From positions 1 to 60,778 of the forward strand of contig VEXF01000007.1 in assembly GCA_009391275.1 (NCBI GenBank): 60,778 nt of DNA, given 5' to 3'. Each line of letters starts with the position of its first letter. Positions within the stretch are counted from its first letter, which is position 1. A program made the position numbers and the translations under genes. Below the pieces are notes generated by a model. The model made no database searches and had not been told where the DNA came from. It saw nothing but the letters and a program-made list of their open reading frames with translations. This DNA comes from SAR202 cluster bacterium AD-804-J14_MRT_500m (lineage in GTDB: Bacteria; Chloroflexota; Dehalococcoidia; UBA3495; GCA-2712585). Below, one piece after another: positions 2,283 through 34,815 of this stretch.

Positions 2283-2693
2283 TTGACTCACCTCGTATAT
2301 GGGATATTTAAGTTTTAGTTATACCGAGACAATAAATTCTATGTTATTTCATCTCTTGATATGATTATAAAGCTAACGACAATTCGGTGGAAGACCCATG
2401 ACTCAAGACTGATCCTAAAAGACATAATCCTTGACATAATTATCAGAATTTGGCTAAAATTGGTGGAATATTCCCAACAACTTAGCCCACTTTCACGCTA
2501 CTCACTAGGAGTCTAATTGAGCTGATAGTAGTGCTAACCGAAGGGTAGAGCAGTGCCATCGACGCAGGAAAACGACACTATAGGGATCCAGATAATTAGA
2601 CAGGGCGCGAGCTCGGTCATTAATCGTACGCATTAACAAGGGAGAGGGCACTAGAGGTGTCTTCTTTTTCAATTGGGTAAACGGAGAGTCACA
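2283..2693. other. Divergent intergenic region with long untranslated leader for the dehydrogenase operon
   Basis: These 411 bp separate the Rieske gene from the E1 alpha gene. They hold a good promoter-like pair (2431-2460) and then about 230 bp before the E1 alpha start. I see no recognisable riboswitch core (no TPP, SAM or glycine motif) and no coding frame in this leader. Confidence 0.45.
2431..2460 (+). promoter_or_regulatory. Candidate housekeeping promoter for the 2-oxoacid dehydrogenase operon
   Basis: A perfect TTGACA at 2431-2436 is followed after 18 bases by TAAAAT at 2455-2460. It reads toward the E1 alpha gene and would give a leader of about 225 bases. No other equally good pair is seen in this gap. 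Confidence 0.5.
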
Positions 2694-3728
2694 ATGGCGT
2701 CTATTGGTGAGAGGTCATCAACGGACCTTCGGCCTTCATTTCGACACCACAGATTGGGTATCACTGACAATGAGATCCAAGAATTCCACGAGAAAATGGT
2801 CCTTGCTCGCACTTTAGACGAGAGATTGTGGGCCTTAAACCGCCAGGGGCTGGTCCCAATTGTTGCATCGTGTCAAGGAGCAGAAGCCGCACAAATGGCT
2901 ATAGCTTGGGCAGGTGTAAAAGATGGAAACTGCTTCTTTTTTACTTATTATCGAGATATGGCATTAAAATTAATGGCCGGTGTAAGCTCATTACAGATAA
3001 TGATCAGCCACTTGGGGAAAAGCACCGATATTTTCAGCGGAGGACGCCAGTTTTTTCTTCAAGGTGCATCGTTGGATCACCGCATTATCCAAACGTCAAA
3101 CGTCGTTGGGTCTAACCTAACACAGGCTGTAGGCCATGGCCTTGGATCCAAACTGTTAGGTGACAAAATGGTAACGTTGGTGATGTTTGGAGATGGTGCT
3201 TCAAGCGAGGGTGAATGGCACGAGGCAATGAATTTTGCAAGCATTCACAACGTTCCAGTTGTTTTCCTTTGCTATAACAATGGATTGGCCATATCCGTCC
3301 CATTACGAAAACAGATGGGAGTACCAGATCTCGCTGTAAGGGCTGCGTCTTATAATATGCCAGGCGTAGTGGTCGACGGAACAGATCCCCTTGAAGTTTA
3401 CCGTGAACTTACAGAGGCCATCAGCCGAGCACGGCACCCTAAAGGAGGGCCTACTCTTATCGAGTTAAAAGTCGAACGGATTAAACCGCACACATCTGAC
3501 GACGACCATACTCGATACAGGTCTCCCGAAGAAATTTCCACGATGATACAAAGAGATCCACTGCCCAAGTTGCACAATTACTTAATCAATTGCGGTCTAT
3601 TAACTCAGAGCAAAGCCGAGCAGATAGAAAGACAATCTATAGATGAAGTAGACAGGATTACAGAAGAAGCACAGTTAGAACCTTGGCCTGACGCTAATGA
3701 ACTAGGTGATCGTCTTTATGCTCCATAA
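2694..3728 (+). CDS. 2-oxoacid dehydrogenase E1 alpha subunit (branched-chain/pyruvate type)
   Basis: This is the thiamine-diphosphate-dependent decarboxylase alpha chain of a 2-oxoacid dehydrogenase complex. The ThDP/Mg motif runs from GDG at residues 166-168 to NN at 195-196. The phosphorylation-loop-like segment PHTSDDDHTRYRSPEE resembles branched-chain (BCKDH) and Gram-positive Pdh E1 alpha chains more than homodimeric AceE. The start is the ATG at 2694 with GGAGAG just upstream; a TTG at 2673 is less likely. It forms a tight operon with E1 beta (11-bp gap), E2 and lipB. Substrate choice between pyruvate and branched-chain oxoacids cannot be settled from sequence. No E3 gene is nearby. 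Confidence 0.92.
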   Translation: MASIGERSSTDLRPSFRHHRLGITDNEIQEFHEKMVLARTLDERLWALNRQGLVPIVASCQGAEAAQMAIAWAGVKDGNCFFFTYYRDMALKLMAGVSSLQIMISHLGKSTDIFSGGRQFFLQGASLDHRIIQTSNVVGSNLTQAVGHGLGSKLLGDKMVTLVMFGDGASSEGEWHEAMNFASIHNVPVVFLCYNNGLAISVPLRKQMGVPDLAVRAASYNMPGVVVDGTDPLEVYRELTEAISRARHPKGGPTLIELKVERIKPHTSDDDHTRYRSPEEISTMIQRDPLPKLHNYLINCGLLTQSKAEQIERQSIDEVDRITEEAQLEPWPDANELGDRLYAP

Positions 3729-3739
3729 ATTGGATATCC

Positions 3740-4723
3740 ATGGCGGTTAAATCTGTTATAGAATCAATCCGCGATACCATATCGGAAGAAATGGTATTGG
3801 ACTCCCGAATAATTCTGCTTGGCGAAGATGTGGGAGCCCGTGGAGGCGTGTTTCTTGCCACCCAAGGTTTCGAGGAGCAGTTTGGAGATGACCGGATTAT
3901 TGACACTCCCCTAGCAGAAGAATCTATAGCTGGGATTGGAGTAGGATTAGCTTTCAAGGGACTGCGTCCAATCATAGAGATCCAATTTTCAGATTTCTGG
4001 TGGTACGCCTGTAACCAAATCGTCGGAGAAGCATCAAGAGTTTTTTACGGAAGCAACGGAAAACTCCCTGTACCCATGGTAGTCAGAATTCCGTATGGTG
4101 GAGGGATCCGAGGGGGATTGTTCCATTCACAAAGTATTGAAGGATATCTATTCAATACACCTGGGTTAAAGGTAGTGGCACCATCCAATCCATACGATGC
4201 CAAAGGGTTGTTGAAATCCGCTATCAGAGATAACAACCCAGTTATTTTCCTAGAACACAAGCGAACTTACAGAGCGGTTCGAGGAGAAGTCCCAGATAAT
4301 GATTATCTGATCCCTATAGGGACGGCAGATGTGAAACGTCCGGGGTCAGACATCACAATTATAAGTTATGGTCTTGTCTTGCACTATGCATTGGAAGCAG
4401 CGACGATTCTAGAAAACGAAGGTATAAGCGTTGAAGTTGTGGACCTTAGGAGCCTCTTGCCACTGGACCATCAAACGATCATTAACTCGGCAAAAAAGAC
4501 AGGCAAAGTATTAATAGTCCACGAAGACAACGTAACCGGGGGTGTAGGGTCAGAAATTTCCGCTATCATTTCTGAAAATGCGTTTGAATTCTTAGATGCT
4601 CCCATTAGACGATTAGGGGGCCCAGACATACCCGCAGTCCCGTTTGCACCAACGCTTGAAAACGCCTATATGCTAAACCCTGATAAAATCGCCGTCGCGC
4701 TGCGCGAATTAGGCGCGTACTAG
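3740..4723 (+). CDS. 2-oxoacid dehydrogenase E1 beta subunit
   Basis: This is the beta chain of the alpha2beta2 E1 decarboxylase. The 327-residue length is typical. Family motifs run in order: GEDVGARGGVF, DTPLAEESIAGIG, IEIQFSDFWW in the pyrimidine-binding domain, then the C-terminal transketolase domain with VVDLRSLLPLD and VLIVHEDNVTGGVGSEI. The short FxYGSxGKLPVPMVVRIPYGGG region is of the branched-chain/acetoin type. It starts 11 bp after the alpha gene and ends 10 bp before E2, so translation is likely coupled. Confidence 0.94.
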   Translation: MAVKSVIESIRDTISEEMVLDSRIILLGEDVGARGGVFLATQGFEEQFGDDRIIDTPLAEESIAGIGVGLAFKGLRPIIEIQFSDFWWYACNQIVGEASRVFYGSNGKLPVPMVVRIPYGGGIRGGLFHSQSIEGYLFNTPGLKVVAPSNPYDAKGLLKSAIRDNNPVIFLEHKRTYRAVRGEVPDNDYLIPIGTADVKRPGSDITIISYGLVLHYALEAATILENEGISVEVVDLRSLLPLDHQTIINSAKKTGKVLIVHEDNVTGGVGSEISAIISENAFEFLDAPIRRLGGPDIPAVPFAPTLENAYMLNPDKIAVALRELGAY

Positions 4724-4733
4724 GAAGACGTCA

Positions 4734-6047
4734 ATGCCGATTGTTCCCATAGAATTGCCACACGTTGGAGAGACCGTAGTAGAAGGCATAATAGACAAAT
4801 GGTTAAGGCGAGAAGGAGATCGGGTCAAAAAGTACGAGCCATTGGTAGAAGTAATCACTGACAAAGTTAATATGGAGGTACCTTCACCATTTTCTGGAGT
4901 TCTTACTAAAATCCTGGCCCAAGAAGGCAACACGGTTGCTATGGGATCAATCATTGCAGAAATGAACACCGAAGAAGCCGTCCAGGGGTCTGTGCTAATT
5001 CAAGAATCATCTCAAGATGGAATCCTTACAGGTACCGCTGGAATCTTAATCGAGAGTAGTGCTCCTGTGGGTCCAACAGGTGCCGGCGATCCTGAGTTAT
5101 ATGACGACTCACCGGCCAGTCGTAGTTTGAAAGACCCTGCTACCACAACCCCAAATAGATATTACTCTCCAGTGGTAACGCGAATTGCCGGCGATCTGGG
5201 AGTAAACCTAGAACAGGTCACTGGATCCGGCGCGAATGGACGCGTTACAAAGCAGGATGTTGTTACATACGCTAGGGACAACCCCACCACAAACATTGGC
5301 CAATCAACCATAGCTCCCCATAATACCAATTTGCCGACAAGCGCAATCGAACAGATCGAAGTGGTTAATGTCACCCCGGTAAGGAGACTAATAGCTCATC
5401 GCATGGCCCGAAGCTCGTCCGAGATACCCCATGCCTGGGCCATGGTAGAGGTCGATGTCACGGGTCTGGTAGAACTTAGATCTAAACTCAAAGAAGGGAC
5501 GAAAGAGCACGTATATTCAGAACTGACGCTGCTTCCATTTGTGATAGCTGCCGTCGCTCAGATGCTAAAACTGCACCCAAACCTTAATGCCTCTTGGCAG
5601 GATGACAAACTATTTTTAAAGCGATGTGTAAACGTAGGTATTGCTGTCAGTTCTAAAGACGGACTGGTTGTTCCAGTCATTCGCAATGCGGATTCGCTTC
5701 AGATATTGGAGATTAGCCAAAGAGTGAGGGCATTAGCCAAACGTGGAAGAGAAGGTACGTTGACGTTAGATGATGTTCAAGGTGGGACTTTTACAGTTAA
5801 CAACACGGGGGCATTGGGAACAATATTATCAGGACCGATTATAAACTACCCGCAAGCTGGCATTTTGACCACAGAGTTAGTCCAAAAGCGCCCCATAGTA
5901 ATCGCCAATGAAATCGTCATACGGTCCATGATGAACATATGCCTATCGTTCGATCACCGAATTCTGGACGGACTGGAGGCAGCTCTATTTCTTCGGGCTG
6001 TACAGGCAGAGCTCCAAGCTTTTCATACCGACACACTGATCAATTAA
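4734..6047 (+). CDS. Dihydrolipoyl acyltransferase (E2) with one lipoyl domain
   Basis: This is the E2 core of the complex, 437 residues. The order is a lipoyl domain (1-80, lipoyl lysine K44 in ITDKVNMEVPSP), a linker, a peripheral subunit-binding domain (about 143-182, SPVVTRIAGDLGVNLEQV then GRVTKQDV), a second linker, and the catalytic domain (about 212-432). The catalytic H408-x3-D412-G413 motif is intact. A single lipoyl domain is usual for Gram-positive-like and BCKDH E2 proteins. AGGAAG precedes the ATG. lipB follows 8 bp after its stop, which fits a need to lipoylate K44. Confidence 0.95.
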   Translation: MPIVPIELPHVGETVVEGIIDKWLRREGDRVKKYEPLVEVITDKVNMEVPSPFSGVLTKILAQEGNTVAMGSIIAEMNTEEAVQGSVLIQESSQDGILTGTAGILIESSAPVGPTGAGDPELYDDSPASRSLKDPATTTPNRYYSPVVTRIAGDLGVNLEQVTGSGANGRVTKQDVVTYARDNPTTNIGQSTIAPHNTNLPTSAIEQIEVVNVTPVRRLIAHRMARSSSEIPHAWAMVEVDVTGLVELRSKLKEGTKEHVYSELTLLPFVIAAVAQMLKLHPNLNASWQDDKLFLKRCVNVGIAVSSKDGLVVPVIRNADSLQILEISQRVRALAKRGREGTLTLDDVQGGTFTVNNTGALGTILSGPIINYPQAGILTTELVQKRPIVIANEIVIRSMMNICLSFDHRILDGLEAALFLRAVQAELQAFHTDTLIN

Positions 6048-6054
6048 TTTATAT

Positions 6055-6726
6055 ATGACCATCTGTCACGTAACCAATTTAGGAACTATTGACTACCCAA
6101 CTGGCTATTTATTACAACAAGATTTAGTAAACCAAATCTCCAATGGACAGCGGACATCTGCCCTTTTACTATTAGAACACCCCCATGTATATACCATTGG
6201 ACGCCTTGGTAATCGAAATCAAGTGCGGTTGGGGTCGGTGCGACTCAAACAGATGGGTATCACGCTTTACAACACTAACCGCGGCGGCCAAGTCACATAT
6301 CATGGACCGGGTCAATTAGTGGTATATCCTATCGTTGATTTAAGAACCTGGGGCGGCCCATTAAAATATGTTCGCGGTTTGGAACAAGTGATTATCCAAA
6401 CTTTAGCTGATTATGGGATTAACGGAGAAATTAAAGATGGTCTCACAGGCGTCTGGATAAACGATTGCAAAATTGCTGCGATTGGCGTAAAAATCACTAA
6501 TGGTGTAGCTCACCATGGCTTCTCGTTAAACGTGGCACCACATTTGGAATATTACCAGCACATTATTTCTTGTGGTATAGAGAACTGTGCAAGCACATCG
6601 GTGGCAATGTTGCTGCGTTGTAGCCCTGATATTGAAACTGTTGCGTATACACTGCAGTACCATTTCGGCAAACTGATGGGATACGAAATGATCGAAGTGC
6701 CCATTGAAGACTTGACCAAGTCTTAA
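6055..6726 (+). CDS. lipB: Octanoyl-[acyl-carrier-protein]:protein N-octanoyltransferase
   Basis: This enzyme transfers octanoate from ACP to lipoyl domains, the first step of endogenous lipoate synthesis. The protein has 223 residues. Landmarks are RGGQVTYHGPGQ (77-87), the catalytic lysine K146 in AAIGVKI, and the thioester cysteine C173 in ISCGIE. The ATG has no clear ribosome site and lies 8 bp after E2, suggesting translational coupling. Its place at the end of the dehydrogenase operon implies that the E2 protein just upstream is a target. lipA is not in the window. Confidence 0.95.
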   Translation: MTICHVTNLGTIDYPTGYLLQQDLVNQISNGQRTSALLLLEHPHVYTIGRLGNRNQVRLGSVRLKQMGITLYNTNRGGQVTYHGPGQLVVYPIVDLRTWGGPLKYVRGLEQVIIQTLADYGINGEIKDGLTGVWINDCKIAAIGVKITNGVAHHGFSLNVAPHLEYYQHIISCGIENCASTSVAMLLRCSPDIETVAYTLQYHFGKLMGYEMIEVPIEDLTKS

Positions 6727-6791: not shown

Positions 6792-7235
6792 TTACTCCTC
6801 CCGAATCGTTGTTTGTATAGTAGTATCTTTAGTCGCCACGGCGACAGAACCATAGAGCGGTCAACGACGTTTATAAATCCCTACTAACCTGTCGGCCTCA
6901 CTATGATTTACACCAGTAAGATCGAAATACATTCGAATACGATCAAATACCGTGTAAATTTCAGCCGTCGATTCTAGGTTCCGGGTACCATCTAAAGATA
7001 CTTCTACTCGAGTCAATGATATCCCTTGTTCTCGGGAAATTCGTTCCAACATAAGGGAGGCACACGAAGTTAAACCTGAGAAAAATACTTCGGCAGCGGT
7101 AACAGCTTCGCTCGGCCCTCCGACGTAGTCTGGATCGTCTATAAGAAAATGGTTGGACCGGACGCTTGTAATGCAGCGCCCAGTTACACCTGAGCTTAAT
7201 GATCGTACCGAAGTAGTATGAAATCTATCAGGCAT
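6792..7235 (-). CDS. OsmC-family peroxide-protection protein with predicted selenocysteine (UGA at 6861-6863)
   Basis: Conventional reading stops at a TGA (6861-6863) after 124 residues, just after YKRR. Past it, the same frame continues for 22 codons (PLYGSVAVATKD and onward) to a TAA at 6792-6794, restoring the normal OsmC/Ohr C-terminus of about 147 residues. The UGA is exactly where the family has its second redox cysteine (xxYKRRCPLYGT in relatives); the first cysteine, C58 in LTSCASLM, is present. Twenty bases after the UGA an RNA hairpin begins its loop (see 6832-6845), as required of a bacterial SECIS. I infer Sec at residue 125. A nonsense mutation is the alternative, but the preserved downstream frame argues against it. 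The start has GGAAGG 5 bases upstream. It lies 17 bp after the ferritin/VIT gene, in the same operon. Confidence 0.8.
6832..6845 (-). promoter_or_regulatory. Candidate bacterial SECIS hairpin of the OsmC-family gene
   Basis: On the mRNA strand, GUCGC (6845-6841) pairs perfectly with GCGAC (6836-6832) around a CGUG loop (6840-6837). The loop begins 20 bases after the UGA and has G as its second base. Both match the general bacterial SECIS rules: a loop about 16-37 bases past the UGA with a G in the first two loop positions. Confidence 0.65.
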
Positions 7236-7252
7236 TGAGACCTTCCTTATGT

Positions 7253-8500
7253 TCAGTTAAAAATTTTCGAGATCACTTCTCCAAGCACCCATCCTATCCC
7301 CGCTGCCCCCGCACCAATAGCTAGAATTTCAAGACCCTGCAAAATTGGTGCCCGTTTTACTAGCCGTCCTTTCGCTGTGCCCAAAATGAACAATGCTATT
7401 AACGCCCCAGCGATCGATGAAATAGTCCCAATTCCACCCCCAACAAAAAAGTAGGGGATTATAGGTATAACTGCTGCTATGATATAAGTCACCCCCATCG
7501 TCACGGCATCTTTCAACGGGTTAGATGCCAAGTCGGGGTCTATACCAAGTTCCTTTTCTACCAACGTGCGCAACCACAACTCTCTGTCAGAAGCAATATG
7601 CTCTGACATCTCACGTGCCTCCTGATAGCTCATACCTTGCTGGTGATATAGAAAGACCAGTTCTGCCATCTCTTCAGCGGGGTTTTCTTCCAGTTCTTTC
7701 GCCTCTTTTTCAATTTCTGACTGAAAGATTTCTTTCTCTGCTTTCGCACCAAGGAAAGTTCCCGTGGTCATGGATATGGTACCGGCTAGAGCTCCCGCTA
7801 GCCCGGCAATCACGATAGTTGTCGTATCAGGAACAGCTGCGGATATAGCGGTTACCAAAGCAACAGTGCTCATCAGTCCGTCCTGCGCACCAAATACAAC
7901 TTCCCTAATTCGGCCGAATGAAGCTACCCGCCACCGTTCACGCTCAACTTCCATCACCGCCTGCGGGAAATCAGACTCGACTTGTGTTATTTCAGTTTGT
8001 CCCAGTTGATCCTTCGTAGTGCCCAAGCCGTCATCAGGGATATCAATAACTACACGGGGAGCCAAGATTGGTGGTTCTATAATTTCTCGTCTGCCAAGTT
8101 TTTCGTTGAGATCATCCGTGGCCTTCATAAATGCTTCCAAATGGTGTCGTTCCCTATCCATTGCTACAGTGAACGCTCTGGCAGCGTCCCTTCGACCCTC
8201 ATCTAGGGCGTCTCGGATCATTCGAGGATATCGGCTTGAAATTTCAGCGGCTTCTCCTTGTGTAACAGCCTTTAAGTTTTCTAAAGTAGATTTGACTGCA
8301 CTAGCAGTCCTAAGATGATTAATGCCGTGAATACTCTCAGCACCGGCCGTTTCTTGGAAGATTTGTGCGATTTCTGGGTGCCCTTCTTCCATAGCTTTAG
8401 CTGCATATGCATTGTATTTTAAGAGAGACATAGCTTCACTGATAATCGCATTCCATAAATTACGTTCCGTTTTAGTCAGGTTGATTTCACCTTTTCTCAT
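7253..8500 (-). CDS. Ferritin-like/VIT1 fusion membrane protein (MbfA-type iron/manganese transporter)
   Basis: The protein has 415 residues from the ATG at 8500, chosen because GGAGA lies 9 bases upstream. The N-terminal third is a rubrerythrin-like helical domain with diiron ligands visible as E22, E55-x2-H58 and E117-x2-H120. The C-terminal half (about 205-415) is a CCC1/VIT1 domain with AQDGLMSTVALV, a glycine-rich AGLAGALAGTISMTTG segment and hydrophobic segments to the end. This architecture is that of MbfA, an inner-membrane iron exporter in alphaproteobacteria (established for that family). Metal specificity here is inferred. It is co-transcribed with the OsmC-family gene, which joins iron handling to peroxide defence. 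Confidence 0.88.
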   Translation of the reverse strand: MRKGEINLTKTERNLWNAIISEAMSLLKYNAYAAKAMEEGHPEIAQIFQETAGAESIHGINHLRTASAVKSTLENLKAVTQGEAAEISSRYPRMIRDALDEGRRDAARAFTVAMDRERHHLEAFMKATDDLNEKLGRREIIEPPILAPRVVIDIPDDGLGTTKDQLGQTEITQVESDFPQAVMEVERERWRVASFGRIREVVFGAQDGLMSTVALVTAISAAVPDTTTIVIAGLAGALAGTISMTTGTFLGAKAEKEIFQSEIEKEAKELEENPAEEMAELVFLYHQQGMSYQEAREMSEHIASDRELWLRTLVEKELGIDPDLASNPLKDAVTMGVTYIIAAVIPIIPYFFVGGGIGTISSIAGALIALFILGTAKGRLVKRAPILQGLEILAIGAGAAGIGWVLGEVISKIFN

Positions 8501-8558
8501 TACACCATCTCCAAATTTATGCAAACTACCACCATATCGCAGCATACTTTAGCACAGG

Positions 8559-29417: not shown

Positions 29418-30563
29418 TCATCCGAGAAGTGATGCAATCCGTGTACCCACTATCTCATCTTCGCCCGATGCAAGTCCAAAGCCATGAATGATCATAAAGT
29501 CCTCGCCATCTCGAACTCTGGTCCATATGGGAGGATCGCCGTTTTTCAGATTATCGACTAGTTCATGGATTGTAATACCAGTGACCGCAGAATCTACTTC
29601 AAGTTGTACCCCAAAAGGTTGGTGACCAATAATGTTATCGAGCAGAGTACATGTTACTCCGGGGATTTCTTGAATATGGGACATTATTTTCTGTGACTGT
29701 TGCTCCGTATATGCCAACCGTTCTTCATGATTCATAGTGAACCACCTGCGTACCGCTACTACTACACCAACCATTTCTTGACGGTCTACCTTGTGTGGTC
29801 TCCCAACTCCCCTTATTCTCCTGCTCTCGTAGCCAACAAAAGACTGATATGAAATCCGCCTTATCATTTCTTCGGTTCCGAGCGCCAAACCAGTGGATTG
29901 TGTAGCTCCGATATATTTTGTTGCTATGCACTGAAAATCGGCTCCCATTCGCACGTATTTACCGAAGTTTTCCAAGGGATAGATTTGCCCAGCGGCATCA
30001 ACAGTAACCGGAATACCCTTATCGTGAGCGATTTCGATGGTATCTTCTAGGGACAGAGCATCATCGTCTGGATTTTGCTCAACCGCATAATAATGAACAG
30101 CCGCGGTATTCGGTCCGATGGCTCTCTTCAGGTCTTCGCGCGAAGTAGATGAATCCGATCCAAATTCCACCAACCTAGCACCAGCAAGTTGAAGACATCG
30201 ATCGTACCAATACCTCTGGCGGCGCTGTATCAAGATTTCGTTTTTGATTCCGGTGGTATCCGGAAGTTGCTGTATTTTTTCGTCATCGTCGCCGGCCATT
30301 ATTGCTGCTGTAGCCAAAGTCAACGCTGAACCGGCCCCAGACGTGACATAGGCAGCCGGCACATTAACCATAGTAGCAATGGCTCGACCAGCTTTCTCCT
30401 CAAGTTCAACCAGCGGGATATAAGCCGCATCTGCCCGGTCCATTGCCTGTTTCACCTCAGGCGCAGGCAGCGAACCCCCTAACATCGTCACACTTCCGAT
30501 AGCGTTAATGATCGGTTGAGCCCCGATTTCTTTGTATATGTCACCCCAATTAAGATCTGCCAT
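29418..30563 (-). CDS. SelA-like PLP-dependent lyase/aminotransferase
   Basis: This 381-residue fold-type I PLP enzyme belongs to the SelA/DgaE superfamily. The opening GAQPIINAIGSVTMLGG, AYVTSGAGSALTLATAA, VDAAGQIYP and the PLP lysine region ATKYIGATQSTGLALG are all seen. It lacks the N-terminal extension of selenocysteine synthase and is shorter than true SelA, so I take it as a DgaE/YhfS-type lyase acting on an amino acid or amino-sugar acid. It heads the accessory block transcribed toward tRNA-Ser(CGA). The deacetylase-fold gene lies 25 bp upstream. Confidence 0.82.
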   Translation of the reverse strand: MADLNWGDIYKEIGAQPIINAIGSVTMLGGSLPAPEVKQAMDRADAAYIPLVELEEKAGRAIATMVNVPAAYVTSGAGSALTLATAAIMAGDDDEKIQQLPDTTGIKNEILIQRRQRYWYDRCLQLAGARLVEFGSDSSTSREDLKRAIGPNTAAVHYYAVEQNPDDDALSLEDTIEIAHDKGIPVTVDAAGQIYPLENFGKYVRMGADFQCIATKYIGATQSTGLALGTEEMIRRISYQSFVGYESRRIRGVGRPHKVDRQEMVGVVVAVRRWFTMNHEERLAYTEQQSQKIMSHIQEIPGVTCTLLDNIIGHQPFGVQLEVDSAVTGITIHELVDNLKNGDPPIWTRVRDGEDFMIIHGFGLASGEDEIVGTRIASLLG

Positions 30564-33522: not shown

Positions 33523-34815
33523 ATGGTTGCGAAACAAGTAGATCACATCGTTAAAAGACCTGGCCGCTTGCATGGAGATCCAGACGTATCCATCCCAGTT
33601 TCAGACGACTTAGTGACCAAGCCCGGGATTCCAGCCAACGAGCCTGACGTAGATTTCTATTCCCGAAAATATCCTATCGAAGACATGTCTCAGACTTTGA
33701 CAGCAGATGCCGAATGGTCTTTTTTAGAGGGATCCCAAGAAGACCAAGAAGCGTTTAGAAGAACCTATCGTTTACTCTCACCGATAGTTAAAGCAGGACA
33801 TGAATCGGGAGATATTGAGCCAAACAATCATCCCGCGGATGGCCTAGATGTAACGCAGCTAATTATCGACATGGCTAAAGAGTTGGGTTTCTGCGAAGTG
33901 GGGTTCACCCGATATGATCGTCGATATACCTACAAGGACAAGAAGCGTTGGGTTAAATATGAGCACGCAATTTGTCTTGCCTTAGAACAAGATTACGAAC
34001 GAACCCAAACAATTCCTTCCGCGTACGCCGAAGACGCGGCCCTATATGCTTACGGCACCATGAGCCAGCTAGGGTTGATTTTGGCCGATTACATACGGAG
34101 TCTCGGTTATCATGCGCAGGTTCACGGACCGATGGACACGGTAGAGGTAATAATTCCCATGTTCGTCGCAGCAGGATTGGGACAACTTGGTGCGAATGGT
34201 CAGTTGTTGTCGCCTCACTTCGGCTCACGGGCGCGTTTAATGACTCTGACTACAGATGCACTAGTCACGTATACTCAGCCAGTGGATTACGGCATACATC
34301 AGTTTTGTCAAGTTTGCCAAGTATGTGTGAACAGATGCCCAGGTCGGGCGCTGCAACGCGATAAAGTGTGGTGGCGGGGGGTAGAAAAAAATAAATTAGT
34401 ATATGAACGATGTCGCCCGGTCATGGCGCGCTTTTCATCTTGTGGGGTTTGCATGAAGGTGTGCCCTATACAAAAATACGGGATGGTCTCAGTAATGGAA
34501 CACTACGTCCAAACCGGCGACGTATTAGGTAAAGGCACTGATGAACTAGAAGGTTATGAACTAGAAGGGAAAGGCTATTTCGGCCCTGGCGAACTCCCCC
34601 ATTTTGATCGTGGCTTTTTCGATCTACCTCACGGGAAGTCTGAGGATGTTCTTTTTGAAGAATTCAAAAAAAAGCTAATTTCCCGAAAAATCCCAGACGG
34701 TGCCGTGGGTGACTCTGAACTCAGACTGTTCCGTGATAAAGTCGAGAAAGCTGTGTTGAAAAACGATGGGTCAGCTAGCCCTATGGCAATGGTTCTTCCG
34801 GACGAAGAAAATTAG
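33523..34815 (+). CDS. Reductive-dehalogenase-like [4Fe-4S]/corrinoid protein without Tat signal
   Basis: This 430-residue protein matches the C-terminal half of RdhA and related QueG-like enzymes. ADYIRSLGYHAQVHG and IPMFVAAGLGQLGANGQLLSP are the RdhA-type nucleotide-loop region. They are followed by two cluster motifs, C262-x2-C265-x2-C268-x3-C272 and C297-x9-C307-x2-C310-x3-C314. There is no twin-arginine signal and no RdhB anchor gene, so it should be soluble and cytoplasmic, unlike respiratory RdhA. It also lacks the C-terminal reductase of NpRdhA. Cobalamin binding is inferred from family. A strong AGGAGG precedes the ATG. Confidence 0.82.
   Translation: MVAKQVDHIVKRPGRLHGDPDVSIPVSDDLVTKPGIPANEPDVDFYSRKYPIEDMSQTLTADAEWSFLEGSQEDQEAFRRTYRLLSPIVKAGHESGDIEPNNHPADGLDVTQLIIDMAKELGFCEVGFTRYDRRYTYKDKKRWVKYEHAICLALEQDYERTQTIPSAYAEDAALYAYGTMSQLGLILADYIRSLGYHAQVHGPMDTVEVIIPMFVAAGLGQLGANGQLLSPHFGSRARLMTLTTDALVTYTQPVDYGIHQFCQVCQVCVNRCPGRALQRDKVWWRGVEKNKLVYERCRPVMARFSSCGVCMKVCPIQKYGMVSVMEHYVQTGDVLGKGTDELEGYELEGKGYFGPGELPHFDRGFFDLPHGKSEDVLFEEFKKKLISRKIPDGAVGDSELRLFRDKVEKAVLKNDGSASPMAMVLPDEEN

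Follow-up and report, generated by a model that had tools for sequence, protein, structure and literature searches.

An OsmC-family gene from SAR202 DNA predicted to encode selenocysteine at the site of the second redox cysteine

A gene on the minus strand (7235 -> 6792) of the 60,778-nucleotide stretch of SAR202 cluster DNA analysed here, which we call the window, very probably codes for an OsmC/Ohr-fold selenoprotein, with selenocysteine (Sec) in place of the second, resolving cysteine; we put the probability of this reading at about 94%. If the internal UGA is read as a stop, the frame 7235->6861 runs for 124 residues from ATG to TGA, and if it is read as Sec the product has 147 residues, U125 being followed by 22 codons and a TAA. 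The first-pass annotation, made from the letters of the window, had placed this UGA at the second redox cysteine of an OsmC frame and held that the 22 in-frame codons restore a normal OsmC C-terminus. Alignment to solved Ohr/OsmC chains agrees with the placement, with residue 125 falling on the second Cys ('CP') and Cys58 on the first, and the C-terminus is likewise seen, the PF02566 score rising from 30.4 bits for the truncated protein to 40.4 bits for the full read-through (cut-off 27.5). The predicted structure model of the protein has the OsmC/Ohr fold. Comparative tests lend further support to the placing of Sec at the second redox cysteine of an OsmC-family protein. The gene adds a subfamily of OsmC selenoproteins that we did not come across in the catalogues we searched; within one order 56 of 250 genomes carry it, and its nearest database entries end at the UGA. 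Positions are collected in Table 1.

Table 1. The predicted selenoprotein gene, its parts and its neighbours, in window positions
Feature	Position	Strand	Basis or remark
Full predicted selenoprotein gene, 147 aa	6792..7235	minus	ATG 7235-7233, UGA (Sec125), TAA 6794-6792
Possible Shine-Dalgarno AAGGAAGG, 5 nt 5' of the ATG	7241..7248	minus	direct reading of the sequence
Codon of Cys58, first (peroxidatic) cysteine	7062..7064	minus	falls on the first Cys of Ohr/OsmC chains
In-frame UGA, residue 125, resolving-cysteine column	6861..6863	minus	context UGAC
Predicted bSECIS hairpin GUCGC-CGUG-GCGAC, loop 6840-6837	6832..6845	minus	covariation; fits bSECIS rules
Read-through C-terminus, 22 codons (PLYGSVAVAT...) and TAA	6792..6860	minus	protein selection past the hairpin
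Rubrerythrin + VIT1 fusion, upstream gene, 17 nt away	7253..8545	minus	PF02915 + PF01988
LipB (octanoyl transferase), convergent	6055..6726	plus	TIGR00214, 147 bits (cut-off 83.55)
Presumed pyruvate-dehydrogenase-type E1 alpha, E1 beta and E2 genes beside LipB	2673..6047	plus	ORFs

The first-pass annotation had also expected standard gene calling to truncate the gene and to miss its active site. The truncation is real: our protein search returned relatives of 124 residues (82, 72 and 60% identity), all of which stop at the position of the window's UGA, and the database entries P0002-P0005 are such truncated forms. The loss of the active site is overstated, since Cys58 is kept in the truncated product, so that gene calling loses the resolving residue and not the whole site. 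Because the stop codon is here almost certainly read as Sec, automatic gene calling drops half of the redox pair.

When the subfamily was followed into whole genomes, codon 125 was UGA in 82 and Cys in 4 of the 86 rows available as DNA (the strong matches and the window itself), with no other codon at the site and with the context UGAC in 82/82 of the UGA rows. Close relatives have either UGA or Cys here, as the selenoprotein reading anticipated. Two rows had been dropped as the same genes as others (L002 as L001, L003 as L135), and two loci of other OsmC subfamilies (L162, L163) stand outside the count of four Cys forms. One row with an incomplete N-terminus (L161) was excluded from the protein alignment and from the tree (FastTree, protein, midpoint-rooted), which therefore hold 81 of the 82 UGA rows and 85 rows in total; 34 of these 85 rows and the database protein P0006 make up the 35 of the structure alignment. 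In the 60% relative (L001), from the Chloroflexi MAG KW1-S21_197 (genome G001), codon 125 is UGA and the stretch from there on reads UPLYGSVAVAT, as in the window. In the class of G001, 61 of 393 genomes gave some match, only four of them below E 1e-30 (UGA in three, Cys in one); the order (250 genomes) gave 57 matches at E <= 1e-12, 56 of them with exactly one internal TGA, the 57th being a far weaker, different OsmC without the stop. A scan of 400 genomes of the phylum gave 33 matches, comprising 24 with UGA (including G001), 4 subfamily Cys forms and 5 with weaker OsmC only, the weaker OsmC matches of the class and phylum scans having been read in part. No relative came from the single-protein genome scan and none from the viral scan, and PADLOC returned no match. 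A lone UGA in a single record would usually raise the suspicion of a sequencing error or a pseudogene, for which we found no support; as 81 other genomes share this UGA and other records contain truncated calls, the likelihood that the window carries such a defect is negligible.

The database proteins point the same way. Among the relatives listed (the best 120 of 4784 profile-ranked matches and the relatives from the protein search), the 120 with a letter at the Sec site have Cys in 118, W in one and R in one. The entry with Trp (P0007), probably a gene call made under another genetic code, is the observation that would favour reassignment of UGA to Trp, or its reading by a near-cognate tRNA, in the organism of the window. 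We hold such decoding to be extremely improbable: the site is Cys in nearly all listed relatives, a hairpin is linked to the UGA, tRNA-Sec is found in relatives, and 16 of the 45 large ORFs chosen in the window end in TGA, in keeping with the earlier remark that UGA is a normal stop elsewhere in this DNA.

Selection on the read-through stretch was assessed in the codons past the hairpin, where pN/pS over 349 related pairs is 0.356 in frame. The other two frames give 1.31 and 1.45, from the 132 and 149 pairs that remained once pairs with stops were excluded. On this measure, protein selection acts on the read-through codons that follow the hairpin.

The hairpin itself, GUCGC-CGUG-GCGAC, begins its loop 20 nt past the UGA. 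The review PMC13188914 gives the rules for bSECIS elements as a loop of 3-9 nt, a stem of 4-16 bp, an MFE <= -7.5, G and then G/U at the first two loop positions and a loop lying 16-37 nt past the UGA; in its description of the pattern, a base pair flanks the G and the G or U that follows it in the small loop. The window's element, with its 4-nt loop CGUG, 5 bp, 20-nt distance and -9.6 kcal/mol (for a 43-nt stretch that includes a second small stem), conforms to these rules, confirming what the first-pass annotation had said of it. Across the 82 UGA rows the hairpin columns align gap-free. The third bases of the Val131 and Ala134 codons, both wobble positions, pair as C-G in 67 rows and as U-A in 15, with no mixed row; within the tetraloop, the third bases of Ala132 and Val133 are C-G in 59, G-C in 14, A-U in 8 and A-G in 1; and the third bases of codons 130 and 135, which form the outer pair, are G-C in 78 and A-U, U-A, C-G and U-U in 1 each, the U-U mismatch occurring only in the window's own row. 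The loop bases GU are present in 82/82 UGA rows, which is partly a protein constraint because GU also starts a Val codon.

We quantified this pattern after removal of identical rows. In the 69 non-identical UGA rows 99.6% of the cells pair, and 37 cells are double-changed compared with 7.5 in shuffles, none of 500 shuffles reaching 37; when the partner was shifted by 1 to 3 columns, two double-changed cells at most were seen. On the protein tree the three pairs require at least 6, 12 and 4 changes, so the pair changes are not a single inherited event. RNAalifold recovers the same stem, minus the pair within the tetraloop, and the synonymous difference over the ten hairpin codons (0.226) is about half of that upstream (0.443) or beyond (0.493). 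To judge from these substitutions, the hairpin is maintained in the 82 UGA rows by compensatory changes at synonymous positions. Folding energy was dropped as evidence in its own right, the z-scores being ordinary in the seven stretches folded: for the 43-nt stretch of the window z is -0.17, with 74 of 200 shuffles folding as well, and in two loci (L005 and L072) the minimum-energy fold differs from the hairpin. A scan of the window for UGA codons with an open frame and a bSECIS-like hairpin downstream returned two places, this gene and position 438. The latter was rejected as a second Sec site; it lies at the end of an edge-cut gene and its UGA is probably an ordinary stop, because a second UGA soon follows.

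The truncated 124-residue database forms are what one would also see if the UGA at codon 125 were a true stop, with a shortened OsmC product and downstream similarity persisting as a relic. With UGA or Cys in 86/86 rows, purifying selection past the UGA (pN/pS 0.36), a hairpin that covaries and a C-terminus shared with the Cys relatives, we consider a true stop very improbable and retain the selenoprotein reading.

The Cys forms of the subfamily serve as a control for the hairpin. They have the same site motif, as CPLY, CPLF or CPIY, with a Cys codon in place of the UGA (L135, L155, L158 and L160 as DNA, with TGC or TGT; P0006, P0008 and others), and the GU loop and the stem are absent from all four seen as DNA. 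These forms are nested among the Sec forms on the tree, so arranged that at least three switches are needed. Val at position 133 is found in 81/81 UGA rows and in 45 of the 118 Cys relatives among those listed, and 12 of the 118, known from protein only, still read CPLYGSVAVAT. Because the nested Cys forms lack the hairpin and V133 is fixed with UGA and variable with Cys, these data point to a constraint of the RNA element on the protein.

Machinery for Sec insertion was looked for in relatives of the window's organism. The nearest genome examined, G001, has a tRNA-Sec (74.7 bits, anticodon TCA), SelA, SelB (split over two contig pieces) and SelD. SelB and SelA are above cut-off in 7/7 genomes tested, of which three carry the UGA gene (G001, G005, G120), one a Cys form and three other OsmC types, and ARAGORN finds tRNA-Sec in six of the seven, the best match in G028 being a tRNA-Ser. 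SelD is above cut-off in 30/30 genomes, 29 of them carriers, and UGA decoding is probably in use there because a TGA lies inside each passing SelD. Within the order, at the thresholds used, SelA is found in 54/56 UGA carriers and 147/194 non-carriers (Fisher 0.0002), and tRNA-Sec in 48/56 and 140/194 (Fisher 0.05); two of the 56 carriers (G565 and G575) have neither at these thresholds and do have SelD. We treat this co-occurrence as weak and not as proof, since the machinery is common across the order, non-carriers included, and the association adds little. A candidate SelA in the window itself (29418-30563) was rejected as DgaE-like, with 29.1 bits to SelA against a cut-off of 267.9; this SelA-superfamily protein of the DgaE type scores 186 bits to that type, below its cut-off of 385. 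From the covariation and the machinery in relatives, we infer that the UGA is decoded in the window's own organism, where SelB with Sec-tRNA would read it under the guidance of the hairpin.

The genes around the selenoprotein gene bear on how the protein might be recycled. LipB lies convergent to it, beside ORFs that we take, from their sequences, to be those of a pyruvate-dehydrogenase-type complex, and the gene order of these ORFs and LipB is kept in the two nearest relatives (L001 and L127); beyond these two it was not found among the loci compared. LipB also lies within the fetched flank of six OsmC genes outside the subfamily (L009, L017, L022, L024, L026, L027), which fits lipoyl-dependent recycling. 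The rubrerythrin-VIT1 gene upstream, which scores 20.7 bits to the model of the iron exporter MbfA (cut-off 450), has a counterpart in L127, and its C-terminal end can be seen by eye at the edge of L001. A general operon with this gene was rejected, the arrangement being confined to the window, L127 (of which L072 is the same place) and the edge of L001. Elsewhere in the window, a reductive-dehalogenase-like iron-sulfur protein at 33523-34815 scores 117.8 bits against a cut-off of 160.35.

The gene neighbourhood thus suggests lipoyl-dependent peroxide reduction. In the course that we favour, Cys58, perhaps aided by the invariant Arg20, would be oxidised by an organic hydroperoxide; Sec125 would then condense with the Cys58 sulfenate to give a selenenyl-sulfide, and a lipoylated protein, for example the neighbouring E2, would re-reduce it. 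We think this course fairly likely as a whole, with the order of the steps and the electron donor being its conjectural parts.

The two residues could also have exchanged roles within the selenoprotein reading, the selenolate of Sec125 attacking the peroxide and Cys58 resolving. Sec usually occupies the attacking position in selenoperoxidases, and this general habit speaks for an exchange, as do the first-site Sec of the published OsmC-like family (30/30 loci) and the retention of Sec125 in 82/86 of the subfamily's DNA rows. The surroundings of Cys58, which is itself Cys in 85/85 aligned rows, argue against it and suggest that a normal peroxidatic site is kept: R20 and F51 are each conserved in 85/85 rows and E49 in 80/85, where R20 and E49 may match the catalytic Arg and Glu of Ohr/OsmC proteins. 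PMC8945050 describes the catalytic Arg and Glu by the peroxidatic Cys as missing in YhfA. On balance we regard an exchange of roles as unlikely, and keep Cys58 as the attacking residue.

A wider proposal, which we offer tentatively and with considerable doubt, is that the gene belongs to a second, Chloroflexota-wide lineage of OsmC selenoproteins whose Sec, having shifted to what was once the resolving site, has become the residue that attacks the peroxide, so that mirror-image Sec-first and Sec-second selenoperoxidases would act side by side in single cells, for example those of G001 and G421.

Among known systems, the closest to this gene are the OsmC-like selenoproteins of marine metagenomes, which the first-pass annotation had mentioned without a source. 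They do exist: the Sargasso Sea paper of 2005 gives three with the motif UXXT (PMC1088965), the GOS paper gives five, also UxxT (PMC2398784), and one such family appears in two reviews (PMC9312934, PMC13188914). These proteins (COG1765/PF02566) share with the window's gene the OsmC family and a UGA-encoded Sec; as represented by the NCBIfam model NF041052 (OsmC_like_Se; OsmC-related (seleno)protein), which from the shared motif we infer to be the published UxxT family, they form a different subfamily with Sec first. This model is above cut-off in 78 of 247 genomes of the order, and the 30 loci of it that were translated have the UGA at the first cysteine in 30/30 cases (ULLTQ or UEMTQ, that is UxxT) and, as judged by eye, a cysteine at the second site. 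Two matches to the model (G564:C42 and G436:C3) have two TGA codons inside. The window protein (P0001) was excluded from NF041052 because its score is low, 24.2 bits against a cut-off of 95, and because the arrangement is reversed, with Sec first in NF041052 (GFULLTQ, LFUEMTQ) and Cys first and Sec second (UPLY) in the window. In four other OsmC loci (L040, L013, L041, L042) the UGA likewise falls on the first cysteine (GTUTSMT, GSUTAIT, GULSVI, AAUTVGT). They score 42-56 bits, well below the NF041052 cut-off, and are possibly further OsmC selenoprotein subfamilies. In the literature searched, which covered few subscription papers and no bioRxiv preprints, we came across neither a description of an OsmC selenoprotein with Sec at the second site nor a paper that treats SAR202 together with a selenoprotein.

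By its sequences, then, the window family is a separate OsmC selenoprotein subfamily that has kept Cys at the first site and has Sec at the second. It also stands apart from the Ohr subfamily (TIGR03561), to which the window protein scores 17.5 bits against a cut-off of 88.85; the lipoyl-dependent Ohr/OsmC thiol peroxidases have a resolving Cys where this gene has Sec. Both types of OsmC selenoprotein are carried by G001 and by G421, and Sec at the resolving site, in genomes that also carry its mirror image, offers a natural test of the benefit that selenium brings to each step of a two-residue peroxidase.
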